DNA of 64,000 bases from Desulfovibrio sp. Lineage in GTDB: Bacteria; Desulfobacterota; Desulfovibrionia; Desulfovibrionales; Desulfovibrionaceae. This document shows positions 50,804 through 64,000 of the stretch, in pieces. The position numbers were made by a program, and so were the translations under genes. The notes beneath the pieces are model-generated. The model saw only the letters and a program-made list of their open reading frames with translations. It was not told the DNA's origin and made no database searches. The first letter of the stretch is position 1; every line of letters begins with the position of its first letter. The stretch covers positions 202,494-266,493 of the forward strand of contig JACQYS010000019.1 of assembly GCA_016208105.1 (NCBI GenBank). Direction: 5' to 3'.

Positions 50804-51586
50804 ATGGTGCCACCAGAAATCGTAACGTTTTTCCCTTGGATCGCTGGCATTCTGGGACTTGTTTTCGGCAGTTTCTACACCGTCTGCGTGCACCGTTATC
50901 TTTCCGAGCAATCCATCGTGCTGCCGGGTTCGCACTGCCCGGCGTGCAAGCACCCCCTCAGGTGGTGGGAGAATATTCCGCTTCTCTCGTTTCTCCTGCT
51001 CCGCGGCCGGTGTTCAAACTGCAAAGCTCCCATCTCCTGGCGTTACCCCCTGCTGGAGGCGATAAGCTGCGCCTGGGCAGTGGCTTTAGCCATGCGCTTT
51101 GGACCAAGTCTGCCCTGGCTGGCCCTCATGGCCGTGGGCGGGGTTTTTCTGGTGACCTCGTTCATCGATCTTGAAATCTATATCCTGCCCAATATTCTCA
51201 CCTATCCGGGCGCGCTCCTGGGCATTGCCACAGGAGTGTTCGCCCTGGGACTCACCTGGGAACAAAGCCTGATCGGGGCGGCTGTTGGTTCAGGCCTGTT
51301 CGGGCTGCTCCGCTTCGTGCACATGCGGGCAAGGGGAGTGGAAGGACTGGGACTTGGCGACGTGAAGCTGATGGCCATGATCGGGGGGCTTACGGGCTGG
51401 ATCGGTCTGCCCCCGGCCATATTATTTGCCGCCCTAGGCGCGCTTGTTTTGGCGCCAGCTTTTAGGCTCGCTTCGAAAGAGTCCGGGCCGCTGCGCATCC
51501 CCTTCGGCCCGTTTTTGTGCCTCGGGTGCATGGTTTCCCTTCTGTGGGGCGACGCCTTCATGAGGCTTTTGGCTGGCAGGCTTTAG
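50804..51586 (+). CDS. pilD: Type IV prepilin peptidase/N-methyltransferase
   Basis: 260 residues. The N-terminal methyltransferase domain has paired cysteines HCPACKHPL and RCSNCKAPI (about 46-49 and 69-72), and eight membrane helices carry the A24 catalytic aspartates in SFIDLEIYILP (about 122) and GLGLGDVKLM (about 186). It cuts the leader from type IV prepilins at G|F-type sites and methylates the new N-terminus. It is next to the pilin cluster at 52-64 kb, although on the opposite strand, and is its probable processing enzyme. A hairpin repeat follows 31 bases past the stop. Confidence 0.95.
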   Translation: MVPPEIVTFFPWIAGILGLVFGSFYTVCVHRYLSEQSIVLPGSHCPACKHPLRWWENIPLLSFLLLRGRCSNCKAPISWRYPLLEAISCAWAVALAMRFGPSLPWLALMAVGGVFLVTSFIDLEIYILPNILTYPGALLGIATGVFALGLTWEQSLIGAAVGSGLFGLLRFVHMRARGVEGLGLGDVKLMAMIGGLTGWIGLPPAILFAALGALVLAPAFRLASKESGPLRIPFGPFLCLGCMVSLLWGDAFMRLLAGRL

Positions 51587-51715: not shown

Positions 51716-52306
51716 TTAAAGAGCCTTGCCGTATTTTGCCGTGACCTTTTCCACGTAGTTCTTGGTCTCGGCTATGGGCGGAACGCCTCCATGCTTGCTC
51801 ACCGCTCCAGGCCCCGCATTGTATGCGGCCACGGCCAGCTTCACGTTCCCGCCGAATCGGTCCAGAAGCTGACGCATATAGCGCGTGCCAGCCTCTATGT
51901 TCTTGGACGCGTCGAAGCTGTCTTTGAGTTTCAAGTCCTTGGCCGTGCCGGGCATGATCTGCATGAGCCCCTGCGCCCCCTTGGGCGAGACCGCCCGGAT
52001 GTCGAACCCGGACTCCACCTCCACCATGGCCCGGACCAGGGCCGGGTCCAGACCGTAGGTCTTGGCGTTGCGGTTGATGAGATACAGTACCTGGCGCTTG
52101 TCCACATTCTGCGGCAAGCGGAAATAAAAAAATGGTTTGAAGTCTTTGGTCGTCTGCGTGTCGCTCAAATGCACCACGCCGCTGGAATCCTGGTAATGAT
52201 AGATTGTTTGCGCGTGAACGAGCTCTGCGGAAAAGAAGATTGCCACGACAATGGAAAAAACCGCCAGGAAGCGGAACGTCTGAAAATTCGCATTCCGCAT
52301 CCTCAT
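51716..52306 (-). CDS. SLT-type lytic transglycosylase with N-terminal DUF4124 motif
   Basis: About 196 residues: signal peptide (cut after LVHA), a DUF4124-like motif (IYHYQDSSGVVHLSDTQT), then an SLT domain (about 75-190) with the catalytic Glu in RAMVEVESGFD, and GAQGLMQIMPGTA and AAYNAGPGAVSK downstream. It cleaves peptidoglycan glycan strands with 1,6-anhydro ends. Next to the pilus cluster, it probably opens the wall for the pilus machine. The start is not settled: ATG codons at 52342, 52321 and 52306 share the frame, and the last best fits a signal peptide. Confidence 0.9.
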   Translation of the reverse strand: MRMRNANFQTFRFLAVFSIVVAIFFSAELVHAQTIYHYQDSSGVVHLSDTQTTKDFKPFFYFRLPQNVDKRQVLYLINRNAKTYGLDPALVRAMVEVESGFDIRAVSPKGAQGLMQIMPGTAKDLKLKDSFDASKNIEAGTRYMRQLLDRFGGNVKLAVAAYNAGPGAVSKHGGVPPIAETKNYVEKVTAKYGKAL

Positions 52307-52465
52307 TGTCTTGTTGCCCATGAAACGCCAATAACCAGCCATACGCGCATTGGCAAGGTTTGGACTGAAACTCGATCCAGATTGAGAATAACTTTAGTGA
52401 TCCGAAACGAAGAATTGAACCTATGCTGCTTCAGTTATTAGGCACTTTTCAAAGAAGTTTTGAGG

Positions 52466-53905
52466 CTAGCGCATCCCAATTTTGGGGATGGAGAAGTAAT
52501 ACTGCCCTGTCGAAGCTCCAGTGGAAACCTGGTAGCCATACACGAAGAACTGAAACATTGTGTGCTCTGCAGCCGTCATATATACGGTGTACTGTAGTGT
52601 AGGGCTAGACCCCGTATAATCCACAGTAATATCATCACACCCCGTTCCTGTGCAGCCGTGCCACGTCTTTATCACATAAGCGTACATGTTATAATGGGCA
52701 TTGCTGGAGTTGGTTGACACCACCGCGGATGGACGGACCAGCTCGATGCGCACGGGCACGGGGCTCGCCGTACCAACCATCAGGGTCCTGGTTATGGACA
52801 GCAGCCCAGGAAGGCCTGAGCCGCCCGGGTCGGTTGACGAGGCGGAGGGATTAAAGGGTTTGTAGTCTGTTTTGTCATTAGCGCCGCCAAGATTGTGTAC
52901 GTTGTCGTCGTATGCGAACGAGGATGACGTGGTGTATGTGTTGGTCGGTGGGGTAGTCGCGTTAGTGATATTCCAGGTGGTTCCCCAGAATATGTTGGCG
53001 ATGTGGTGGTTGTCCGGGTCGTTGCGGCCGTCGTCGCTTACCCCGCTATGGCCACTGTTGGTATAGATGTCGAACTCTATTCCTATTTTCGGAGGACGGA
53101 TTCCCTTACCATTTCCCCAATAGGGATACCCCGGCCCGGAATAGCCCAAGAACGATCCGTGTGAGACACTTGCCAACGGCCCACCCGCGTCTTGCGGCGT
53201 GTTCCAGGTGCCATTTTTTATGGCAAACACGAAACCGTCGGCTGCGGACCCCGAAGTGATGCTGTACGTGAAGTACACCCGAATGCCGTTTAATAGGCTC
53301 CCGATACCGTTGTTGAAGTTGGCAGAGGTAACGGAGTTGTTCGGCGCGCCGGCAAATCGCGGGTCGAAGCTTATGCCTGCGGTGTAGTTGGTGAGCGCGG
53401 AAGCATTGACGGACACTGACGTCGGAGAGGCAACAGCTGTCCCGGGTTTGGATTGAACGATGAAGATACCCGAATCCACAGGGGAGTTTATTACGTTCGT
53501 GACCTGATAGTTGGCCTCGAAAGGGGTACCTACATTCACGCTGCCTATGGACTTGACAGTGTAGTCATAGGTGTTTGGGCTGTTTTGCTTCACATCCAGG
53601 GTTATCTTCTGGTTCGTCCCCAGGTCAGTGGTGATCACCCTTCCATCGAGATCCTGCTCCATGGTCCGGCCACTATGATGCCCGATGTTGACTTCCCCGG
53701 CATAGGCCGAGGCGTAGTTTATGCCGGACTCCGCCAGCATCCGAGCCTGAGTGTCGAAGGTGAGCATCATCTCGTTTTTCTTTGATGTGTTGGAAACGGA
53801 CAAAACGCCTGCCGTCAACGAAGCGATAATCGTGATGGCGGCCACCACCCACACCAGAGAGTAGCCCGCTTGGTTTGTCGTCGCCCTGAACCTCAGCCTC
53901 GACAT
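52466..53905 (-). CDS. Tip-type pseudopilin with L-type lectin-like domain
   Basis: 479 residues. The N-terminus is prepilin-like: a basic leader, AG|YSLVWV and a hydrophobic helix of about 23 residues, but the Glu5 of ordinary pilins is absent, as in GspK or MshP-type tip subunits. From about 155 the sequence has the order of L-type (legume/bacterial) lectins: ADGFVFAIKNG, GGPLASVSHGSFLGYSG, IGIEFDIYTN, NDPDNHHIANIFWG. Eight N-X-S/T sequons are present. The gene is the last of five pilin-type genes in a row, at the position of mshP/mshQ in MSHA loci. An adhesive tip that binds glycans is inferred. Confidence 0.8.
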   Translation of the reverse strand: MSRLRFRATTNQAGYSLVWVVAAITIIASLTAGVLSVSNTSKKNEMMLTFDTQARMLAESGINYASAYAGEVNIGHHSGRTMEQDLDGRVITTDLGTNQKITLDVKQNSPNTYDYTVKSIGSVNVGTPFEANYQVTNVINSPVDSGIFIVQSKPGTAVASPTSVSVNASALTNYTAGISFDPRFAGAPNNSVTSANFNNGIGSLLNGIRVYFTYSITSGSAADGFVFAIKNGTWNTPQDAGGPLASVSHGSFLGYSGPGYPYWGNGKGIRPPKIGIEFDIYTNSGHSGVSDDGRNDPDNHHIANIFWGTTWNITNATTPPTNTYTTSSSFAYDDNVHNLGGANDKTDYKPFNPSASSTDPGGSGLPGLLSITRTLMVGTASPVPVRIELVRPSAVVSTNSSNAHYNMYAYVIKTWHGCTGTGCDDITVDYTGSSPTLQYTVYMTAAEHTMFQFFVYGYQVSTGASTGQYYFSIPKIGMR

Positions 53906-53916
53906 GGCGCCCAACC

Positions 53917-54417
53917 TTATTGGAAGCGCTGGGTATTCAGCGCGATGTTCGTGTTATAGGTCTTATTGACATTGCCCTTCCACGTTGGGACTCGAACGGT
54001 GAGTTGAATCACAACGGGGGTTGGCGGGTTTGCTCCAAAATTCTGCTGTGTGGCAACAAATCCCGTCCCGCTGACCACGTTCCCCACCAACGTATTGTTG
54101 TTTATTTGGAGATTTGTTCCATTAAGTTGTATTATTGTCTGAGACACATCTGTCATGTAATAGTATGTCAAAACATTGCTCGAGATCCATGAGGATGTAA
54201 GCCGCTTTGTATCGGCATTCGCTATCTCATGGGTAATACGCGTCAAAGCTGCTTGAATGTTTTCTTCCGCAGCGGCCTCGTTCTTAGCCAAGAGCCATCC
54301 CTGCAACACATTCATCAACACGGGCAAAGCACCAGCAGCGACAATTCCCAAGATGACCAATGTCACAATCAGCTCAATAAGAGTCGTTCCCCGTTGGTTT
54401 TCTCTAGCACTAATCAT
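53917..54417 (-). CDS. Type IV pseudopilin (PilW/MshO-like)
   Basis: 166 residues from ATG 54417. Leader MISARENQRG ends in the cleavage site G|TTLIELIVTLVILGIVAAG, with Glu at position 5. A coiled-coil helix (NEAAAEENIQAALTRITHEIA) follows, then a beta-rich globular domain with few cysteines. Three N-X-S/T sequons (NGT, NNT, NKT). AGGATGAAGAC precedes the start; ATGs at 54435 and 54459 are possible but give a longer leader. It lies 12 bases before the lectin pseudopilin, and follows another pseudopilin by 38 bases, so the row is one operon. Confidence 0.86.
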   Translation of the reverse strand: MISARENQRGTTLIELIVTLVILGIVAAGALPVLMNVLQGWLLAKNEAAAEENIQAALTRITHEIANADTKRLTSSWISSNVLTYYYMTDVSQTIIQLNGTNLQINNNTLVGNVVSGTGFVATQQNFGANPPTPVVIQLTVRVPTWKGNVNKTYNTNIALNTQRFQ

Positions 54418-54455
54418 GTCTTCATCCTGGCTCATTACGTTTGTAACACACCAGA

Positions 54456-54851
54456 TCAAAACTGCTGAGTAAAAATATACGTTAGCGACTGACCAGTTGC
54501 CTTATCCGTAACAGTAAGCCGGAGAGACGGGTTGATGTCATTGGCGTTAAAGCGATAATTTGCATTCGTATTTATTGTATACAGTGAGTTCAACTTGTAG
54601 ACACTGCTATTTGAAACAACTATGTTGCTGTTAAGCTGCGTGAGATTATGTAAATACGTCCCGCTATTGCTGTAATCCGTAATAATATTGGCCATCACAA
54701 GCTGCAAGCGAAGGGGCGGAGGCATCTGATCAAAGGGCTTCGAACTCGTGGTCACACCGGACAAAAAATAGGGCACGACCATGGCGGCCATTATCCCAAC
54801 CAAAAGGATAGTGACGATCAGCTCGATAAGTGTGAAGCCCTTGTTGTTCAT
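54456..54851 (-). CDS. Type IV pseudopilin (MshD/GspH-like size)
   Basis: 131 residues. A very short leader MNNKG is followed by FTLIELIVTILLVGIMAAMVV with Glu5, so processing by the prepilin peptidase is expected. The globular part is small, Asn-rich and contains two N-X-S/T sequons (NLT, NSS). ATG 54851 is used; a GTG three bases upstream is less likely. It is the third of five pilin-type genes and of a size with minor pilins that build the tip complex. Confidence 0.86.
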   Translation of the reverse strand: MNNKGFTLIELIVTILLVGIMAAMVVPYFLSGVTTSSKPFDQMPPPLRLQLVMANIITDYSNSGTYLHNLTQLNSNIVVSNSSVYKLNSLYTINTNANYRFNANDINPSLRLTVTDKATGQSLTYIFTQQF

Positions 54852-54865
54852 CACTTACACCTTGA

Positions 54866-55405
54866 TCAGGGCACGTAACCCGTGCCTGGGGTGATCACCA
54901 CGGGACTATATGAACAGTCTGTCACGGCAAAAGACATGGTCCCCGATGGCACACCACGCGTACTGAAAGTAACGGTTCCGGCTGCCACGCCACCAGTGGC
55001 GAAAGTGATGGTACTGTGGTCGACACCATTTCGCTGAAGCGTCCCGGTTTGCCCGCTCACCACGAAGGACCAGGGGACGATGTCAGCCATAGCTCTCGTC
55101 CTGGTGTTTCGCAAAGCACCTTTGAGGGTTTCAGCATCGGCATAGGCGTCGTAATTGGTGGTGGACCTGCGGGACATGACCACCACGCCGATGATGGCCA
55201 CGAGCACCAAAGTTACGGCCAACTCCTTGAGCGTAAAACCCTGGCTCGCCGATTGGCCCCGGATATCCCGCGGCACAGATGCATGAATTCCTTGAAGGAG
55301 GGGCTCCGCACACACGCCTTGCGGCCCCAATTCAGGGGCCCAGGCTCCAGCCTCAGCTGGCAGCGTTTCAATGAAGAATATTTTTTCAAGCCATCGAGAC
55401 AGCAT
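54866..55405 (-). CDS. Type IV pseudopilin with unusually long leader
   Basis: 179 residues. The pilin motif SASQG|FTLKELAVTLVLVAIIGVVV begins only at residue 57, giving a 56-residue leader, far longer than the usual 5-25. The leader start is nevertheless well supported: GGAGGG lies eight bases before ATG 55405. An internal GTG at 55276 (VPRDIRG) would give a 13-residue leader, with AAGGA 12 bases upstream. Position 5 is Glu; Lys4 is odd. The globular domain has one Cys and no N-X-S/T sequon, unlike its neighbours. Size suggests a GspH/MshC-like minor pilin. Confidence 0.78.
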   Translation of the reverse strand: MLSRWLEKIFFIETLPAEAGAWAPELGPQGVCAEPLLQGIHASVPRDIRGQSASQGFTLKELAVTLVLVAIIGVVVMSRRSTTNYDAYADAETLKGALRNTRTRAMADIVPWSFVVSGQTGTLQRNGVDHSTITFATGGVAAGTVTFSTRGVPSGTMSFAVTDCSYSPVVITPGTGYVP

Positions 55406-55543: not shown

Positions 55544-55960
55544 TTATTGCAGTACGACCGTCTTGCCCTTGTCGGTGGCGGGGATATTGGCCAGCCTTTG
55601 ACTGATGGAGTTCACAAGGCTGTTGGTTACCAGGATATCAACGCCAGTCGAGTTGTTCGAAGTGTTAGCGGTGTAACTGAGCGTGAAGTCGCCCACGTTG
55701 TTGTACGGAGCGCTGCTCAGAGTGGTTACCAGGTTGGTAAGGTTGAAGTTACCGGCGATCAACTGCTGGGAATAGACCATGGTGACGTTAGAGGCACCGG
55801 CCGCCACAGCACCCTTCACTGCGCCCGCAGCCGCCTGGTCCTGCATGTCCAGGTACCTGGGGATGGCCACGGCTGCCAGCATGCCCACGATAACCAGAAC
55901 CGCGATAACTTCGATAAGGGTAAAGCCGCCCTGGCCGCTTCCGATGGTACGAGTCTTCAT
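55544..55960 (-). CDS. Major type IV pilin (MshA/PilA-like)
   Basis: 138 residues. The 12-residue leader MKTRTIGSGQGG precedes FTLIEVIAVLVIVGMLAAVA with Glu5. The mature protein (about 126 residues) has no Cys pair and five N-X-S/T sequons, three of them overlapping (NTSNNST). Its start is fixed by GAGGAG nine bases upstream. It has its own sigma-54-type promoter at 56093-56109 and is followed by a hairpin, as expected for an abundant subunit. It is the first of five pilin-type genes. Confidence 0.93.
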   Translation of the reverse strand: MKTRTIGSGQGGFTLIEVIAVLVIVGMLAAVAIPRYLDMQDQAAAGAVKGAVAAGASNVTMVYSQQLIAGNFNLTNLVTTLSSAPYNNVGDFTLSYTANTSNNSTGVDILVTNSLVNSISQRLANIPATDKGKTVVLQ

Positions 55961-56458: not shown

Positions 56459-58576
56459 TTAGCGTCCGATGGCAGAGTTTAATTTCGTCCTATACTTTTC
56501 AATTTCCTTGATCAGCTCTTCATCCTCAGCAGGGGCTTTTGTCAGGGCCATATCTAGCAAAAGAAGGCCTTCCCGGCCCTTGCCCGATAAAGCAGCCACA
56601 ATTCCCAGATCGTAGAGGTCTTTGGCCGGAGTATTCCATACCAACGGATTGGCAACATCCTTCAACGCCTCGTACCCCTTGGAATACTCTTCAAGCCTAA
56701 CATACGCAGCATAAAGGTTGCGTTTGATGCTCACCCCTTCAACCGGGTTGGCTCGGTCAAGGGCCTTGAGGTTTAGTTTGACCGCTCGTTTAAAGTCGTT
56801 CTGCTCGAACGCGACTTGTGCACCCAGGGCATACCCCATGAAATGCTCTGGGTGCCTGCTTACCATCATTTCAGCATGAACAGCAGCTTTCTCCAATTGT
56901 CCTTCGGCCATGAGAATCTTTGTCACCACCGCGTTTGCCACAAGCCCTTCCGGATACACCGCCAGGAGCCTTTGTGCTTCCACAAGGGCCTTTGCCCTGG
57001 TTTCGCTATTCATCGCCTTGTAGTCGGCGCTTGCCATGCCGGCTATCGGCAAAGCTTCCATGCGGTATTTGCCCACAAGGCCAGGGTGTTTGTCCGAGTC
57101 GGCGTAGAGAACGGCGTAATCATCAAGAAAAACCGGCACGAGACGAGGGAAACCAGCCATTGTTTCAGCGAAGCCCTGGTCATCCTTGGCGATCATGATG
57201 AAATCGGGCGCATAACGCTCAAGCATTTTCCCCAAAACCGTTTTGTCGTGTGCGAAGTTGGAGCTTTGAAAGAAATCAAAGCTGCTAAAGAGCATGGTCT
57301 CCATGTCCATGAACAAACTGTATTTGGGATGCAGTCTCCAAACCAAATAACCGCCCGAGTTTGGTTCGTTCAGAATGCGGCCGCCGGGACCCTCTTTCTC
57401 AAGGAAGTCGCACACGCCTACCGGCAGTTGGCCATGGCTCAAGGGGAAATGCGGCCTGTATCCAAGATATCCAACCACAACAAATATGGTTCCGCAAACC
57501 ATGGCCAGCCCGGTGGATACGGCGGCCCTCCAGGATATATCGCGAGTCTTTTGGCTCAACAGGAAAAGGGCATCCCCTATCAGAGGCAGCAGCAGCAGCA
57601 CGAACTCATAAGTGAACCGGCGTGACTGAGGCAGCAGGAGGAGGCCTCCAGCAATGAGGATAAGGCGGCTTAAGCGAATCCGGCGCATTACGCACAGAAC
57701 CGTGGCACTTACCCCCAGGATCACCATGAGCAGATTTGCCAGGGAACCTACTGCGTTGCTCACGGGATAGAGTGAGAACACCACAAGGTCGCTCAGTTTC
57801 GTGGCGCGGAGTTCGTTGATAACCAGTTCGTGGAACAAGGGCGCGGCAAATGGTTTGAGCAGAAGACCCGTCCCCGCCGGGGTGGCCAGCACCGTGTACA
57901 TTGTGGCGATCAACGGCCACCGGAGCTGCCGCAACTCGTTCGGGACAGGACGGCGCAAAAGCTTCGCGATGAAATACTCGCAGAGATAGGCTCCGCAGAT
58001 AAGAAGCATCACCGGATACTCGACTCCGTGCAGATTTACCCACACGACTCCGATGGCCGGCAGGAGCCACCCCAACTGCGGACGTTGATTGATAATCAGC
58101 ATGAATACAGCAATGCCCATGTAGGAAAAAACGTGAGGCCGCAGAAGAAGATCACGGGGGAGTATGGCCATGGCGTACAAAATGGTGAGGCTCAGGACCA
58201 GCAGCGTGGCACCGTTTCCGCCCTGCCGGGCCTGCCCGGACAGATACCGGTAAACGAACCATACCGTGAGGATAAACAGAGCAGCCCGCACCAACACCAG
58301 GGCTTCGTACCCACCCAGTTTGAAAAACGTGTACAGGAACACCTGGTGAAGCCAGTAATAGTCCACCCAGGTACCTGCTGAAGCAAGGTAGGAGAAATAC
58401 GGTCCGTCGGGCAGGCGGAGGTTTTCAAATATGTATCGCCCGCCAGCCAGATGATAGAAAAGGTCATTATCATAGGCGACTATTGGCCATAGCGCTAAGA
58501 GCACTCCCATACCGGCCAAGAGCGTCAAGACAAGGTAGGATCGGAAGGAATTAGCTCCTGGGTGCCCAAAATTCAT
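56459..58576 (-). CDS. Polytopic GT-C-like membrane protein with C-terminal TPR region
   Basis: 705 residues. About ten to twelve membrane helices lie between 12 and 400, and the first loop has acidic residues (YDNDLFYHLAGGRYIFEN; WVDYYWLHQVF) as in GT-C oligosaccharyl/mannosyl-type transferases. The soluble C-terminal 200 residues (about 505-705) form TPR-like helices (AEGQLEKAAVHAEMMVSRHPEHF; NDFKRAVKLNLKALD). ATG 58576 follows AAGGAG. It lies between the sigma-54 activator and major pilin. Enzyme activity is not shown; it could glycosylate pilins, or be a structural component like MshN, which is also TPR-rich. Confidence 0.72.
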   Translation of the reverse strand: MNFGHPGANSFRSYLVLTLLAGMGVLLALWPIVAYDNDLFYHLAGGRYIFENLRLPDGPYFSYLASAGTWVDYYWLHQVFLYTFFKLGGYEALVLVRAALFILTVWFVYRYLSGQARQGGNGATLLVLSLTILYAMAILPRDLLLRPHVFSYMGIAVFMLIINQRPQLGWLLPAIGVVWVNLHGVEYPVMLLICGAYLCEYFIAKLLRRPVPNELRQLRWPLIATMYTVLATPAGTGLLLKPFAAPLFHELVINELRATKLSDLVVFSLYPVSNAVGSLANLLMVILGVSATVLCVMRRIRLSRLILIAGGLLLLPQSRRFTYEFVLLLLPLIGDALFLLSQKTRDISWRAAVSTGLAMVCGTIFVVVGYLGYRPHFPLSHGQLPVGVCDFLEKEGPGGRILNEPNSGGYLVWRLHPKYSLFMDMETMLFSSFDFFQSSNFAHDKTVLGKMLERYAPDFIMIAKDDQGFAETMAGFPRLVPVFLDDYAVLYADSDKHPGLVGKYRMEALPIAGMASADYKAMNSETRAKALVEAQRLLAVYPEGLVANAVVTKILMAEGQLEKAAVHAEMMVSRHPEHFMGYALGAQVAFEQNDFKRAVKLNLKALDRANPVEGVSIKRNLYAAYVRLEEYSKGYEALKDVANPLVWNTPAKDLYDLGIVAALSGKGREGLLLLDMALTKAPAEDEELIKEIEKYRTKLNSAIGR

Positions 58577-58633
58577 CACTGAAACTCCTTAGCCCCTGCC
58601 AAACTCGTTTTTATGCGCTCGTTTCAAAAGCAC

Positions 58634-58667: not shown

Positions 58668-60002
58668 TCAGTTCGGCTTGTAGGCAGCGGGGTCCAACCC
58701 GAGCTTTTTGATGCGATGCCAAAGACTGCGCTCTTTTATGCCAAGCATCTCGGCCGCCCGAACCTGAACCCCATGACTTTTGATAAGTGCCGCTATGATA
58801 AGGCTCTTCTCTATCTCTTCAAGACGCTCGTCCAAGTCCTTGGCCCTGCTCTCGGGCATTACTGGCAGTTGCGGCTCAGTGGCGGAAACGAGCCTGAGCT
58901 GTGCGGGCAAATGCTCGGGCAGAACCATGCCATGTTCATCTGCCAGGACCGCCGCCCGCTCCAGAGAGTTGCGCAATTCACGTACATTTCCCGGCCAGGA
59001 ATACGCCATCAGCAGCTGCAGTGCTTCCGTTGAAAGAGTGAGCCCAGGCCCGAAGCGCTCAAGAAAGTGCGAGCACAGCATCGGAATGTCCTCAGGCCGG
59101 ACGCGTAATGGCGGCAAGAGAATCGGGAAGACGTTCAAGCGATGGTAGAGATCTTCCCGGAACTCGTTGCGAGTGATCATTTCCTGGAGATTTTTGTTGG
59201 TGGCCGCAACCAGCCGGACATTGAACCGAACCGGCTTGGCCCCACCGACCCTCTCGGCCTCCCCGTTTTCAAGGGCACGCAAAATTTTGGCCTGTGTCTC
59301 CAAAGGCATGTCGCCTATCTCATCCAGAAAGAGTGTACCGTTGCTGGCCTGCTCGAACTTGCCTTTTTTTACGGCGATTGCCCCGGTGAAGGCCCCTTTT
59401 TCGTGCCCGAACAGCTCGCTCTCCATGAGTCCGGGGGGGATGGCCGCGCAGTTCACCGCCACGAAAGCCCTATCTTTGCGTTTGGAGTGGGAATGGATGG
59501 TGTTGGCGAACAAATCCTTGCCCGTTCCGGATTCCCCGGTCAGCAATACAGTTGCTTCCGAAGGAGCAACCTTGGCTACCTGGGACATCACTCCCCGCAA
59601 GGGTCTGCTCTCACCAATGACGCCCGGGAAAAGCGCCTTTGCGTCCAGGCTTTCCATCACCTGGGTGACGTGCTCGAACATTTGGCCCAGAGCTTCAATT
59701 TCTGCGCCACGGGCCCGTTCCATCCGTTCCGCTGGTTCCTTGAGCATCGGCAGTTTCTTGGCCCTTTCCAGAAACTCCTTTACGGGCTTCAACACCAGAG
59801 TTCCAAGCAGCATGGCTACGCCGAAAACAGCAAGACCGGTAACAGCCGCCGTGATGTAGCCGTTGCGGGCCGAAGCCCCTCCCTCAAGAAAACCGAATCG
59901 CCAAGCAGCCTCCGTTCCCAATACGCACAGCGAGGCGATCCCCCCCAGGATGAAGGGAATGAGCACGCCAAGGGATATGTCCACACGCACTCGCTGAAAC
60001 AT
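58668..60002 (-). CDS. Membrane-anchored sigma-54-dependent activator
   Basis: 444 residues. Two membrane helices (about 9-29 and 49-71) with a short loop between, a HAMP-like linker (about 72-120), then the AAA+ sigma-54 interaction domain (about 125-355): Walker A GESGTGKD at 156-163, the sigma-54-contact loop GAFTGA at 203-208, Walker B TLFLDEIGD. A Fis-type HTH (VRAAEMLGIKERSLWHRIKKLG) ends the protein. It has no receiver domain, so no phosphorelay is expected; signalling by the membrane segment is inferred. ATG 60002 abuts the TAG of the GspF-like gene. Its target is probably the promoter at 56093. Confidence 0.92.
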   Translation of the reverse strand: MFQRVRVDISLGVLIPFILGGIASLCVLGTEAAWRFGFLEGGASARNGYITAAVTGLAVFGVAMLLGTLVLKPVKEFLERAKKLPMLKEPAERMERARGAEIEALGQMFEHVTQVMESLDAKALFPGVIGESRPLRGVMSQVAKVAPSEATVLLTGESGTGKDLFANTIHSHSKRKDRAFVAVNCAAIPPGLMESELFGHEKGAFTGAIAVKKGKFEQASNGTLFLDEIGDMPLETQAKILRALENGEAERVGGAKPVRFNVRLVAATNKNLQEMITRNEFREDLYHRLNVFPILLPPLRVRPEDIPMLCSHFLERFGPGLTLSTEALQLLMAYSWPGNVRELRNSLERAAVLADEHGMVLPEHLPAQLRLVSATEPQLPVMPESRAKDLDERLEEIEKSLIIAALIKSHGVQVRAAEMLGIKERSLWHRIKKLGLDPAAYKPN

Positions 60003-61226
60003 CTATTTCACCATCTTGGTCAAATCCCACATGGGGAGGAAAATGGCCAAAGCAAAAAAACCGACCACCCCGGCCAAACCGACTACCAGTATTGGATTGA
60101 TTGCTTCCGACAACGAACTTACCGCATACTCCACTTCCGCATCATAATGGTTGGCCACGGCCATAAGCATCTCTTCCAGATTGCCGGTTTCCTCGCCCAC
60201 GGCCACCATATTGATGACCATCGGAGTGAAGTATTTTGCCTGGCGTAGCGGAGAGGAAAGTCCGCGCCCTTCCTTGAGCAGCTCCTTGATGCGCGAGAAC
60301 TCCAAGGCAATGGCCGCATTGCCTATAGTTCCTTCTAAGATATCCAGGGTGGCCAGCACGCTTATGCCGCTGGCCTGGAGAATGGAGAAGATGGAAGCAA
60401 AGCGGGACATAGCCGCCTTAGTAAAAAGAGGCCCGAAAATTGGGATGCGTAACCACAGGTTGTCCCACCAAAGACGGCCCCCTTTTGTTCTTAGAAATCT
60501 GATAAAAAGAAATATTCCAACAATGATTCCGCCTAAGAGATAATATCCGTAAGCATCGAAAAATTCATACAGATTTATTGCAATCACAGTTGGCGCTGGC
60601 AGTTCGATTTGAGCCCTTTTAAAACTAACCACAAACTTGGGCACCACGAAGTTTAACAACACGTAGAAAGCAGTACCCAAAGCAACGACTATTGTAGCCG
60701 GATACTGTAAAGCGGAGCGTATGTCCGATTTCACCTTATGTTCGTGCTCTATGAGATAGATGAGGCGGTTGAGCACCTCCGGGAGTGCTCCGGACTGCTC
60801 ACCCGCCAGAACCATATTCTGGTAAAGCCCGGAAAATACCTTGGGATGGTTTGAAAAAGCCTCAAACAAGGTTTTGCCCTGTTTGATGTCCGCATTCATG
60901 ATCGTGCAGACTTGCTTAAGCTTTTTATTCTCGGTTTGCTCTTCTAAGATACGCAAGATTTCGAGAATGGAAAGTCCGGCTTGCACCATGGTCCGGAACT
61001 GTTTGGTAAAAAGGATGAGATCTTTAAGCTTTACTGCGGTAAGCTTTATCTCGGTTTCTTCCCACCATCCCTCCAAGCCGCCTTTCACCCTGCCCCGGGA
61101 AATTGAAACAGGAATGTACCCCAAAGCCATAAGCTTCTGGCGTGCCTGATCAACCGACTCGGCTTCGATCACTCCGGATATGGTCCGGCCGGATTCGTTC
61201 AGGACTTGGTAGGAAAAAGAGGCCAT
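60003..61226 (-). CDS. Pilus inner-membrane platform protein (GspF/PilC/MshG)
   Basis: 407 residues. Two GspF domains (about 70-195 and 272-395) and three membrane helices, with the N-terminal FSYQVLNESGRTISGVIEA typical of the family. Motifs FTKQFRTMVQAGLSI and GEETGNLEEMLMAVA match. It forms the base on which the assembly ATPase works; that ATPase (GspE/PilB/MshE) is not in the window and should be to the right, or elsewhere. The gene is four bases after the ExeA-like gene and abuts the sigma-54 activator gene. Confidence 0.94.
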   Translation of the reverse strand: MASFSYQVLNESGRTISGVIEAESVDQARQKLMALGYIPVSISRGRVKGGLEGWWEETEIKLTAVKLKDLILFTKQFRTMVQAGLSILEILRILEEQTENKKLKQVCTIMNADIKQGKTLFEAFSNHPKVFSGLYQNMVLAGEQSGALPEVLNRLIYLIEHEHKVKSDIRSALQYPATIVVALGTAFYVLLNFVVPKFVVSFKRAQIELPAPTVIAINLYEFFDAYGYYLLGGIIVGIFLFIRFLRTKGGRLWWDNLWLRIPIFGPLFTKAAMSRFASIFSILQASGISVLATLDILEGTIGNAAIALEFSRIKELLKEGRGLSSPLRQAKYFTPMVINMVAVGEETGNLEEMLMAVANHYDAEVEYAVSSLSEAINPILVVGLAGVVGFFALAIFLPMWDLTKMVK

Positions 61227-61230
61227 GGAA

Positions 61231-62814
61231 TTATTTGAGGATGATCTTGAGTCCCGAAGGAGTCTTTTCCACCACCGGCCGGATCGGAGCCGCCGAGGCG
61301 TCCTTGAGATAGACTGCCACCCTCAGTTTATCTGGATGAACGGCGCTGCGTACTTTGTCAATGCGTGAGGACCCGACGGACAATTCTCGTTCCGTTTTCC
61401 TTTCCCAGGCCCCGAAAAGATCCACCACGATTCTGGACGGGTTCGGCTTGAAGCCAGCCTCAAAGCGCTCGACAGGTTTGTCTGTAAGTATATCTAAGGT
61501 TTGCATTCCATCCGCAAAGTCCGCGCGAACTCCGGTGAAGCGAGGCAGGCCCCCAGAACGATTATTTCCCGGCTGTTCAGGAACGGTTGGTTCGGCACCC
61601 AGGAGGGAGGGGGCGTTCAGGTCCTGCGTCGGTTTAAAGGCATTGGGTTCTGTTTTTCCCTCTACAGACGTCTGATAATCCGGTTGCGGACCTGTAATGC
61701 CTTGAGCGGGCGTTCCCGTCTTATCCTGTCCGACAGTGGACAACTCCGCAGCCGGTTTGGTCTCCTGAGCAGGCGCGGACGCATCGGTGGGCACGCTCTC
61801 CTGCCTGGATGCCACGCTGGAGCGAAACCACGAAGCCACATCCGGCATGTGTACCTCCGGCATGGAAGCCCTGATCCGCCCGACTTCAAAAGGCACAAGC
61901 CCCAGATAAACCGCCGCACCCGCCACCGCCAGCAGGATGCAGAGCGCTCCGGCCAACGCCCATGGCCAGCGTCTGTGCCGAGGCAATCCCAAGGTACGCC
62001 AGCGCATGCAGCTGCGCACCACGCCCCACGTTACCCGTGGCCTTTCTTTTATTATAACAGCCAGAAGCGCTTGGTGGCACAACTGCACGATCTGACGCGG
62101 GAAACCGTCCGTGGCCAGAAATACAGCGAGCAACGCCCCAAAGCTGAAAAGCCCTTCCGGAGAAATATCCTTTGAGCACATGGCCAGCCGGGCCTGGATC
62201 AGCTCACGCGTGTCCTGGAAGTCCAGAGGCTCTATCCTGTAGCGCAAGTTCACCCTGTCAGCCAGGTTGGCCTTGGCTTCCAAAATCGGCTCAAATTCCA
62301 ACTGGCCGAAGATGACGATCTGCAACAGCTTGTTTTCGTTGGTTTCGAAGTTGAGAAGCTCCCGGAGGATCTCCAGACACTCGAGAGACATCTTCTGGCC
62401 TTCGTCCACAATGAGGACCACGAGTTGGTCCTCTTCGACTGCAAGCCCCCACAGGGCATTTTTGATGTTTTCCCGAAGCTGCCAGTCGCTGGCCTGCCCC
62501 GCCGCCTGTGCATCCACCCCGAAAAAACCATTCAATTGGACAAGCAGCTCTCTGGCGTCTGAAAAGGTCGGGTCCAGAATGAGATGGGTGACTACTCCCT
62601 GGCGCTCCGCTAGCACCCGGATGAGCTGACGGCACAAGGTGGTCTTGCCCGTTCCCACGTGCCCCGTGACCACGGACAAGCCCCTCTTGAGGCGAATGGC
62701 TATCTCAAGAGCCTGCAGACATTCCCGGTGCTGTTTGGTGCGATAGAACAGCTCCGGGTCCGGGGAGTTGGAAAAAGGCTCCCGGCGAAGATTCAACACC
62801 TCGAAATACCGCAT
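61231..62814 (-). CDS. ExeA/MshM-like AAA ATPase with membrane helix and C-terminal AMIN domain
   Basis: 527 residues. Residues 1-270 are the ExeA-type ATPase (Walker A GHVGTGKT at 51-58; Walker B VLIVDEGQ near 135). One membrane helix (about 286-305) and a Pro/Thr-rich linker follow. Residues about 420-527 are an AMIN domain (RIVVDLFGAWER). ExeA-type ATPases help secretins assemble; AMIN binds peptidoglycan and in PilQ sits on the secretin itself. Here it is on the ATPase, giving a protein that can link cytoplasmic ATP hydrolysis to periplasmic wall binding. It is one base from the secretin gene. Confidence 0.9.
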   Translation of the reverse strand: MRYFEVLNLRREPFSNSPDPELFYRTKQHRECLQALEIAIRLKRGLSVVTGHVGTGKTTLCRQLIRVLAERQGVVTHLILDPTFSDARELLVQLNGFFGVDAQAAGQASDWQLRENIKNALWGLAVEEDQLVVLIVDEGQKMSLECLEILRELLNFETNENKLLQIVIFGQLEFEPILEAKANLADRVNLRYRIEPLDFQDTRELIQARLAMCSKDISPEGLFSFGALLAVFLATDGFPRQIVQLCHQALLAVIIKERPRVTWGVVRSCMRWRTLGLPRHRRWPWALAGALCILLAVAGAAVYLGLVPFEVGRIRASMPEVHMPDVASWFRSSVASRQESVPTDASAPAQETKPAAELSTVGQDKTGTPAQGITGPQPDYQTSVEGKTEPNAFKPTQDLNAPSLLGAEPTVPEQPGNNRSGGLPRFTGVRADFADGMQTLDILTDKPVERFEAGFKPNPSRIVVDLFGAWERKTERELSVGSSRIDKVRSAVHPDKLRVAVYLKDASAAPIRPVVEKTPSGLKIILK

Positions 62815-62815
62815 G

Positions 62816-64000
62816 TCAGCTGCCGGGTCTTCCAGGCTGCGGAACGGTTGGAGCCGGCCCCAAGGGTATCGGCTGCCGGTCTGGGGACCCTGGACGACCT
62901 GATGGAGTCTGGGGGGCCTGGGACATGGGCTGAGGCCCCTCAGCTATTGCCGTTCCGCCTTTGAGGATAGTGGGAGTGATGAATATGAGGACATCCTGCT
63001 TCGTGTCTTGCTTGCTCTTGTCGCCGAACAGATAACCGGCTGCGGGAATATCCTTGAGCCCGGGGAAACCCTGGCTCGATTTTGATTTGGTGTGTTTGGC
63101 CAGCCCTGAAATGATGATGGTGGAACCGTCCTCCACGATGAGTGTGGTGTTGGTCTCCTTCTTGCGGATGGGCGGATTGCCCTGCACCCATTGCGTCTGA
63201 TCCGTGACCACTTCATCATTTTTTATGATGAGCTTCATACGCAGATTCCTGCCGTCGATGACATGCGGCGTCATTTCCAGGCGCAGCACCGCATCTATGA
63301 ACTGCACGTTAGTACCGTTCTGAGAAACTGAGACATACGGCACCTTCTCGCCATTTTCGGTGAAGGCCATGCTGTTGTCCAAGGTGGTGAGCGATGGCTC
63401 GGAGAGGATGCTGACCTTGCCGTCCCGGGCCAGCGCGGTAAGCTGCATCTGGAGAATGTTGTTGTTGATATTGCCCCAAAGGAAGTTGATGGCCGCTCCC
63501 TGCGCCCCCAGGCCCGCACCCGGAGGCGAGCCTGTGTTTGTGATTGCGGCAGGGAAATTGAAGGCGTACCCGCGACTGGAAGGCCCAAGCCCGTAGGTGT
63601 TGGTATAGGTGACGGTACCGTCCGACGCAACGGTCCTATCGGTTGAGGACTGTATAAAGGCACTGTTGCCGCTGGGGTCCGCGATGGACTTGAAAAAGCC
63701 GCCCCATTGAAAACCTATGTCTTGCAAAGAGTCCTTGGTGGCCTCCACGATGAACGCCTTCAGGTGCACCTGGAGCCTTGGCTCGTCGAGTTTTTCAACG
63801 AGTTTCACCAGCATCTCAGCATGTTCTCTGGGGGCCTGGATGACGATGGAACTTGAATGCCTGTCGGCCACGACCAATCCCTTGATCTTCCCTGCAAGTT
63901 CATCGCTGCCCGAGGCGGCGCCAGCAGCCGGGGCGCCTGGCGCTCCGGGAGCAGCGCCGGGAGCACCACCTGGAGCCGCCCCAGAGGAAGCCAGGTATCC
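62816..64000 (-). CDS. Type II/IV pilus secretin, MshL/PilQ/GspD family (partial, 5' end off window)
   Basis: 394 C-terminal residues, open to the window edge. Gly/Ala/Pro-rich linker (first about 30 visible residues), an N3-type domain (VVADRHSSSIVIQAPREHAE, VEKLDEPRLQVHLKAFIVEA), then the secretin core (about 120-330; TSTLTTLDNS type block, LRMKLIIKNDEVV, and LFGDKSKQDTKQDVLIFITPTIL at the end of the barrel). A Pro-rich tail follows. It forms the outer-membrane gate for the pilus. The next gene (ExeA-like) starts one base after its stop, so they are co-translated. Confidence 0.92.
   Translation of the reverse strand, partial: GYLASSGAAPGGAPGAAPGAPGAPAAGAASGSDELAGKIKGLVVADRHSSSIVIQAPREHAEMLVKLVEKLDEPRLQVHLKAFIVEATKDSLQDIGFQWGGFFKSIADPSGNSAFIQSSTDRTVASDGTVTYTNTYGLGPSSRGYAFNFPAAITNTGSPPGAGLGAQGAAINFLWGNINNNILQMQLTALARDGKVSILSEPSLTTLDNSMAFTENGEKVPYVSVSQNGTNVQFIDAVLRLEMTPHVIDGRNLRMKLIIKNDEVVTDQTQWVQGNPPIRKKETNTTLIVEDGSTIIISGLAKHTKSKSSQGFPGLKDIPAAGYLFGDKSKQDTKQDVLIFITPTILKGGTAIAEGPQPMSQAPQTPSGRPGSPDRQPIPLGPAPTVPQPGRPGS

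Follow-up and report, generated by a model that had tools for sequence, protein, structure and literature searches.

A Glu5-less minor pilin with an L-type-lectin-like module, a putative tip adhesin of type IV pili in a sulfate-reducing bacterium

Little is known of how sulfate reducers use type IV pili to recognise surfaces and partners. The 64,000-nucleotide stretch of Desulfovibrionaceae DNA analysed here (the window) encodes a minor pilin whose C-terminal module is well supported as a distant relative of the legume-lectin sugar-binding domain, and through which the pili of this bacterium probably grip sugars. The explanation that we consider likely is that the protein occupies the K position, that of the tip-capping subunit without Glu5, in a retractile type IVa-like Fundidesulfovibrio pilus and serves as a glycan adhesin at its tip. 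Computation establishes its prepilin site, the fold class of its module, the conservation of metal and sugar residues, its operon position and a pairing of fused and split genes in related bacteria. A tip subunit with a recognisable putative glycan-binding site represents a directly testable adhesin.

The gene and its pilin part

The gene occupies 52466..53905 on the minus strand and, read from its ATG, encodes 479 aa. An AAGG precedes the ATG at 53905, just past the stop codon of the pilin gene before it, and an alternative TTG start at 53914 would lengthen the product to 482 aa (open reading frame 52466-53914, minus strand); on the plus strand, stops interrupt the frame. Four of six congeneric genomes carry orthologs with 71-75% identity to the window protein, and the best named relative is Fundidesulfovibrio agrisoli (79% over the module), for which reason the genome probably belongs to Fundidesulfovibrio (Desulfovibrionaceae). 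The lectin was not found in congeners G002 and G006, where the GspF of the locus was not matched either (G006 is 66% complete, and the search had no positive control). Within the source genome there is no sign of a second lectin, as a search with the module returned only the window gene and a PF18483 search returned none. The orthologs are under purifying selection (module dN 0.12-0.21, dS at least 1.5), and the constraint is stronger on the module (75-82% identity) than on the pilin part (53-62% identity, dN 0.32-0.41), a contrast drawn from dN only because dS is near saturation.

An earlier note on this DNA had claimed, from the sequence alone, a prepilin-type N-terminal helix lacking Glu5 followed by lectin blocks, and both are indeed present in the gene. 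The leader (residues 1-14; 53864..53905, minus strand) ends at Gly14, which is invariant in 42 homologues, and the prepilin site, QAG/YSLVWVVAAITIIASL, is of class III with Trp instead of Glu at +5; among the 42 aligned homologues, 35 have an aromatic residue here (Tyr, Phe or Trp) and 3 have Glu. The full-length AlphaFold model, built with 42 homologues, consists of a long pilin helix (residues 15-76; 53678..53863), a pilin-type beta sheet (residues 90-140; 53486..53638), a low-confidence and probably flexible linker (residues 143-195; 53321..53479; pLDDT below 50) and a beta-rich module, all on the minus strand. The protein thus has the make-up of a modular type IV pilin, with a class III leader, a hydrophobic helix and an extra C-terminal module on the pilin part. 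Searches of the pilin part against Pfam and NCBIfam gave no match to the GspK or PilX models, and its profile found nothing useful in the PDB.

The L-type-lectin-like module and its putative binding site

The module spans residues 196-479 (about 285 residues; 52469..53320, minus strand) and contains four lectin blocks in order, namely A222-D-G-F, LGYSG (253), IGIEFDIYTN (with E277, D279, Y281 and N283) and NDPDNHH (D296...H301). A regular expression for these ordered motifs matched this gene alone among the 273 open segments of the window, and it matched no sequence in 200,000 shuffles of the protein; as it was written after the sequence was known, this test shows only that the pattern is not an effect of composition. 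The earlier note had assigned residues 155-479, some 300 in number, to a lectin domain, a reading that holds in its substance and needs correction in its limits, since residues 143-195 form the linker and the module covers about 196-479.

Structure prediction returned the L-type lectin fold, the jelly roll that had been anticipated. In Foldseek searches against the PDB, the matches listed for the module-only AlphaFold model (67 homologues; pLDDT 84.1, pTM 0.87) were L-type lectins throughout, with a probability of 1.00, among them legume seed lectins, the lectin domain 7elv of M. jannaschii, ERGIC-53 and VIP36, to which the full-length model added the SasG/Aap and Emp46 lectins. The TM-scores are moderate (for 7elv, 0.43 by query and 0.60 by target), and long insertions may be the reason. 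At the level of sequence families, where a profile check had been proposed, profile-profile alignment by hhalign with three true L-type lectin domains of the same phylum, two of them above the PF18483 cut-off, reached a probability of 97.2 (E 2.8e-11), and the window protein itself scored against PF18483 with E 4e-4 and 20.7 bits, below the curated cut-off of 78.3, so that the module is to be regarded as a distant relative of L-type lectins and is not filed as a member of PF18483. PF18483 is matched by 23 of 42 homologues (best 6.6e-7) and Lectin_legB by three, and a deep profile of the module found lectins in all 15 of its 15 matches to PDB sequences, each of them weak (E 0.02-1.5). Taken together, these predictions and alignments provide good computational support for the lectin reading of the module. 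An unrelated fold was ruled out, as the structural matches listed are L-type lectins, and neither a model without a jelly roll nor homologues with an unrelated C-terminal pilus fold, which the earlier note had named as evidence against it, emerged. A similarity to the fimbrillin EcpD/MatB (E 0.025) vanished with a deeper profile, and a match to CapA/CapB (E 0.45) was due to chance.

Within the module, conservation among 67 homologues is highest at the metal and sugar residues. On the minus strand, the putative site comprises Asp223, the candidate sugar-binding Asp (53237..53239; kept in 59 of 67 homologues, and corresponding to Asp117 of YwfG), the putative sugar-loop glycines Gly241-Gly242 (53180..53185; 64 of 67), the segment E277-F-D279-I-Y281-T-N283, which would contribute to both metal and sugar binding (53057..53077; E277 and D279 in 67 of 67, N283 in 62), and D296...H301, the rest of the putative metal site (53003..53020; D296 in 66 and H301 in 58 of 67). 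The Asp and Asn residues expected of a Ca/Mn site are therefore present, with E277 and D279 invariant. All eight site residues (D223, G242, E277, D279, Y281, N283, D296 and H301) occur in the window protein and in 50 of 67 homologues; the site is incomplete in some homologues, one group of which has lost parts of it. In YwfG of L. lactis, Ca2+ is bound by Asp152, the main chain of Tyr154, Asn156 and Asp166, and mannose is contacted by Asn156, Asp117 and glycine main chain, with stacking of Tyr154 (PMC9815576). The equivalents here are D279, Y281, N283, D296 and D223, a correspondence that derives from the shared D-x-Y-x-N pattern and from profile alignments, without direct superposition. Binding of Ca2+ and of a sugar ligand is what these residues would predict.

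Two further observations concern the module. A DDNVH block (D333-D334-N-x-H337; 52895-52909, minus strand) is near-invariant, with D334 and H337 in 67 of 67 homologues, and has been matched to no known lectin site. Moreover, the lectin module also occurs on Glu5-bearing pilins of other families (loci L025, L026 and L055), in several of which Ser or His replaces the sugar and metal residue Asn283.

The pilus locus and the place of the lectin gene

The lectin gene lies directly after a minor-pilin series on the minus strand, in which synteny and domain matches assign a J-like (53917..54459) and an I-like prepilin (54456..54854), both with Glu5 and an N_methyl domain, and an H-like prepilin (54866..55405) with a weak GspH match, whose translation probably starts further downstream than the listed ATG. 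Domain and profile matches identify a probable GspG-like major pilin (55544..55960), a GspF/PilC platform protein (60003..61226; PF00482, E 1.7e-56), an ExeA/MshM-like ATPase with an AMIN domain (61231..62814) and a PilQ-like secretin (62816..64000), which runs beyond the window end and has 604 aa in locus L111. The same strand encodes PilM-like, PilO/GspM-like and GspB-like proteins, a PilB/GspE ATPase is encoded further upstream, and the prepilin peptidase PilD (50804..51586; PF06750 and PF01478) and two PilT/PilU ATPases beside the locus are on the plus strand. An attribution of the locus to the MSHA type, made earlier, stands only in part: the locus does have the ExeA/MshM-like ATPase, but nothing resembling mshQ was identified in it and the secretin scores 279 bits against PilQ (cut-off 284) and 97 bits against MshL (cut-off 250), and this PilQ-like secretin sets the locus apart from classical MSHA.

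Several neighbouring genes deserve mention in their own right. A lytic transglycosylase (SLT) gene (51716-52342, minus strand) directly follows the lectin pilin, likewise in F. agrisoli and Solidesulfovibrio loci, and its product may open the peptidoglycan for the pilus. Inside the pilus locus, 58668-60002 (minus strand) encodes a sigma-54 activator that is anchored in the membrane by its N-terminus and has no receiver domain, and an NtrC-type gene recurs beside pilins in many related loci. Between the major and minor pilins, 56459-58579 (minus strand) encodes a polytopic membrane protein of 706 aa, whose C-terminus carries TPR-like repeats and which recurs among the pilins of five Solidesulfovibrio loci (L023, L074, L077, L078, L083).

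The lectin gene closes the minor-pilin cassette, immediately behind a GspJ-like pilin, in nearly every related locus from Desulfovibrionales, Syntrophaceae and Desulfobacterales. With no Glu at +5 and the last place in the cassette, the protein shares two features with GspK/PilK, and in tip complexes the capping subunit is likewise one that lacks Glu5 (PMC10191384). In five Syntrophaceae-type loci (L070, L071, L072, L075, L084), a gene for a Glu5-less K-slot pilin is closely followed by one that encodes the same lectin module in a secreted protein, so that pilin and lectin, which are two adjacent genes there, look fused in the window gene. This pairing provides independent support for pilin and lectin acting together, and favours the general idea of the K pilin as a platform for adhesive modules. 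Other arrangements have been observed as well: in two Solidesulfovibrio-type loci (L023 7336-10429, L079 5500-8700), a single pilin cassette ends in a tandem pair of lectin pilins, and L021, L022 and about 15 further loci encode longer homologues with about 230 extra C-terminal residues, which in L021 and L022 form a second ConA-like domain, Laminin_G_3.

Proposed function, alternatives and known systems

In the proposed mechanism, the lectin pilin would lose its leader to the prepilin peptidase and then take the outermost place in a complex with the H-I-J minor pilins, a place proposed because the protein lacks Glu5, the residue through which a subunit docks beneath the one before it. The PilB-like ATPase would extend the pilus through the PilQ-like secretin, and the flexible linker would display the Ca2+-dependent L-type-lectin-like module for the binding of a glycan. 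We infer from this arrangement a tip location, adhesion and an adhesin role in place of PilY1.

In type IVa pili, the tip adhesin is usually PilY1. It was not detected in the source genome, in a search in which the positive controls were silent too. Among sampled genomes, the PilY1 search was positive in 72 of 148 from the phylum and in 34 of 247 from the order, and none of these 34 belongs to the Desulfovibrionaceae genomes sampled, the family that holds 37 of the 42 lectin-positive genomes of the order. This distribution suggests a replacement but is no proof of it, and lectin and PilY1 are not strictly exclusive, as four genomes of other families (G040, G042, G091, G103) have both lectin and PilY1. 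A broader and still tentative reading, somewhat less credible to us than the tip adhesin itself, is that of a tip-lectin family in several bacterial groups, fused to or beside the K pilin, which would replace PilY1 in Desulfovibrionaceae and in which the conserved aromatic residue at +5 would mark a class of tip pilins.

The module might have the lectin fold and metal site and bind the glycans of the bacterium itself or of its matrix, such as its own exopolysaccharide or a glycosylated pilin, thereby serving aggregation or matrix anchoring and not attachment to foreign surfaces. We regard this as unlikely, although free-living anaerobes offer no obvious host glycan and the recurrent polytopic membrane protein among the pilin genes, which we take to resemble GT-C-type membrane glycosyltransferases, is a possible pilin-glycosylating enzyme; domain searches recognised no glycosyltransferase domain in it, and the analysis points to no particular ligand. 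That the lectin subunit lies along the shaft is quite improbable: the minor pilins PilX, ComP and PilV are distributed in this way (PMC10191384) and Glu5-bearing pilins carry lectin modules as well, but the missing Glu5, the bulky module and the K-slot synteny favour the tip.

Very improbable, in our judgement, is a secretion-type pseudopilus whose module recognises a secreted substrate, or a purely structural fold without sugar binding. The GspG-H-I-J-K gene order, several T2SS-like scores and the partial loss of the site in one homologue group would suit such a role; the two retraction ATPases adjoining the locus, however, argue for a retractile type IV pilus over a pure secretion pseudopilus, and the strong conservation of the metal and sugar residues speaks against loss of binding. 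Finally, the sub-threshold Pfam score could indicate a C-terminal half that is not lectin-like and motif blocks that arose by chance, an idea with almost no probability left, as structure, profile and residue conservation agree and the hhalign and Foldseek results largely refute it.

The tip adhesin that we favour shares features with several known systems. Like GspK/PilK, it lacks Glu5 and is encoded by the final gene of a GspG-H-I-J-K-like cassette, but GspK has an inserted alpha-domain in place of a C-terminal lectin, and the window protein has no GspK/PilX sequence match (PMC10191384). With PilY1 (PilC1/PilC2) it shares the proposed role of a tip adhesin presented by minor pilins; PilY1, however, is a separate secreted beta-propeller protein, an arrangement closer to the split Syntrophaceae lectins. 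The Asp, Tyr, Asn, Asp series that serves Ca2+ and mannose in YwfG recurs in the window protein, but YwfG is a sortase-anchored Gram-positive wall protein, and its module carries fewer insertions and is not joined to a pilin part (PMC9815576).

A survey of modular pilins counted over 1,200 in 264 architectures, some with PF13385 lectins (PMC8179133); Pfam-based surveys would tend to miss the lectin pilin described here, as its prepilin motif goes unrecognised and its lectin stays below the curated cut-off. Our search of the literature available to us found no description of an L-type lectin on a minor pilin. The closest precedent is PilC of Streptococcus sanguinis, a pilin with a ConA-like lectin module and a proposed tip location, which has been shown to bind sialylated glycans and sulfated glycosaminoglycans (PMC9934059). 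PilC, however, keeps Glu5, has an Ig-like domain ahead of its lectin and a lectin compared with galectin-7, whereas the window protein lacks Glu5 and its module resembles Ca2+-dependent L-type lectins. Lectin-bearing pilins are thus already known from streptococci, and what is new here is a widespread L-type-lectin variant in the gene slot of the tip subunit.
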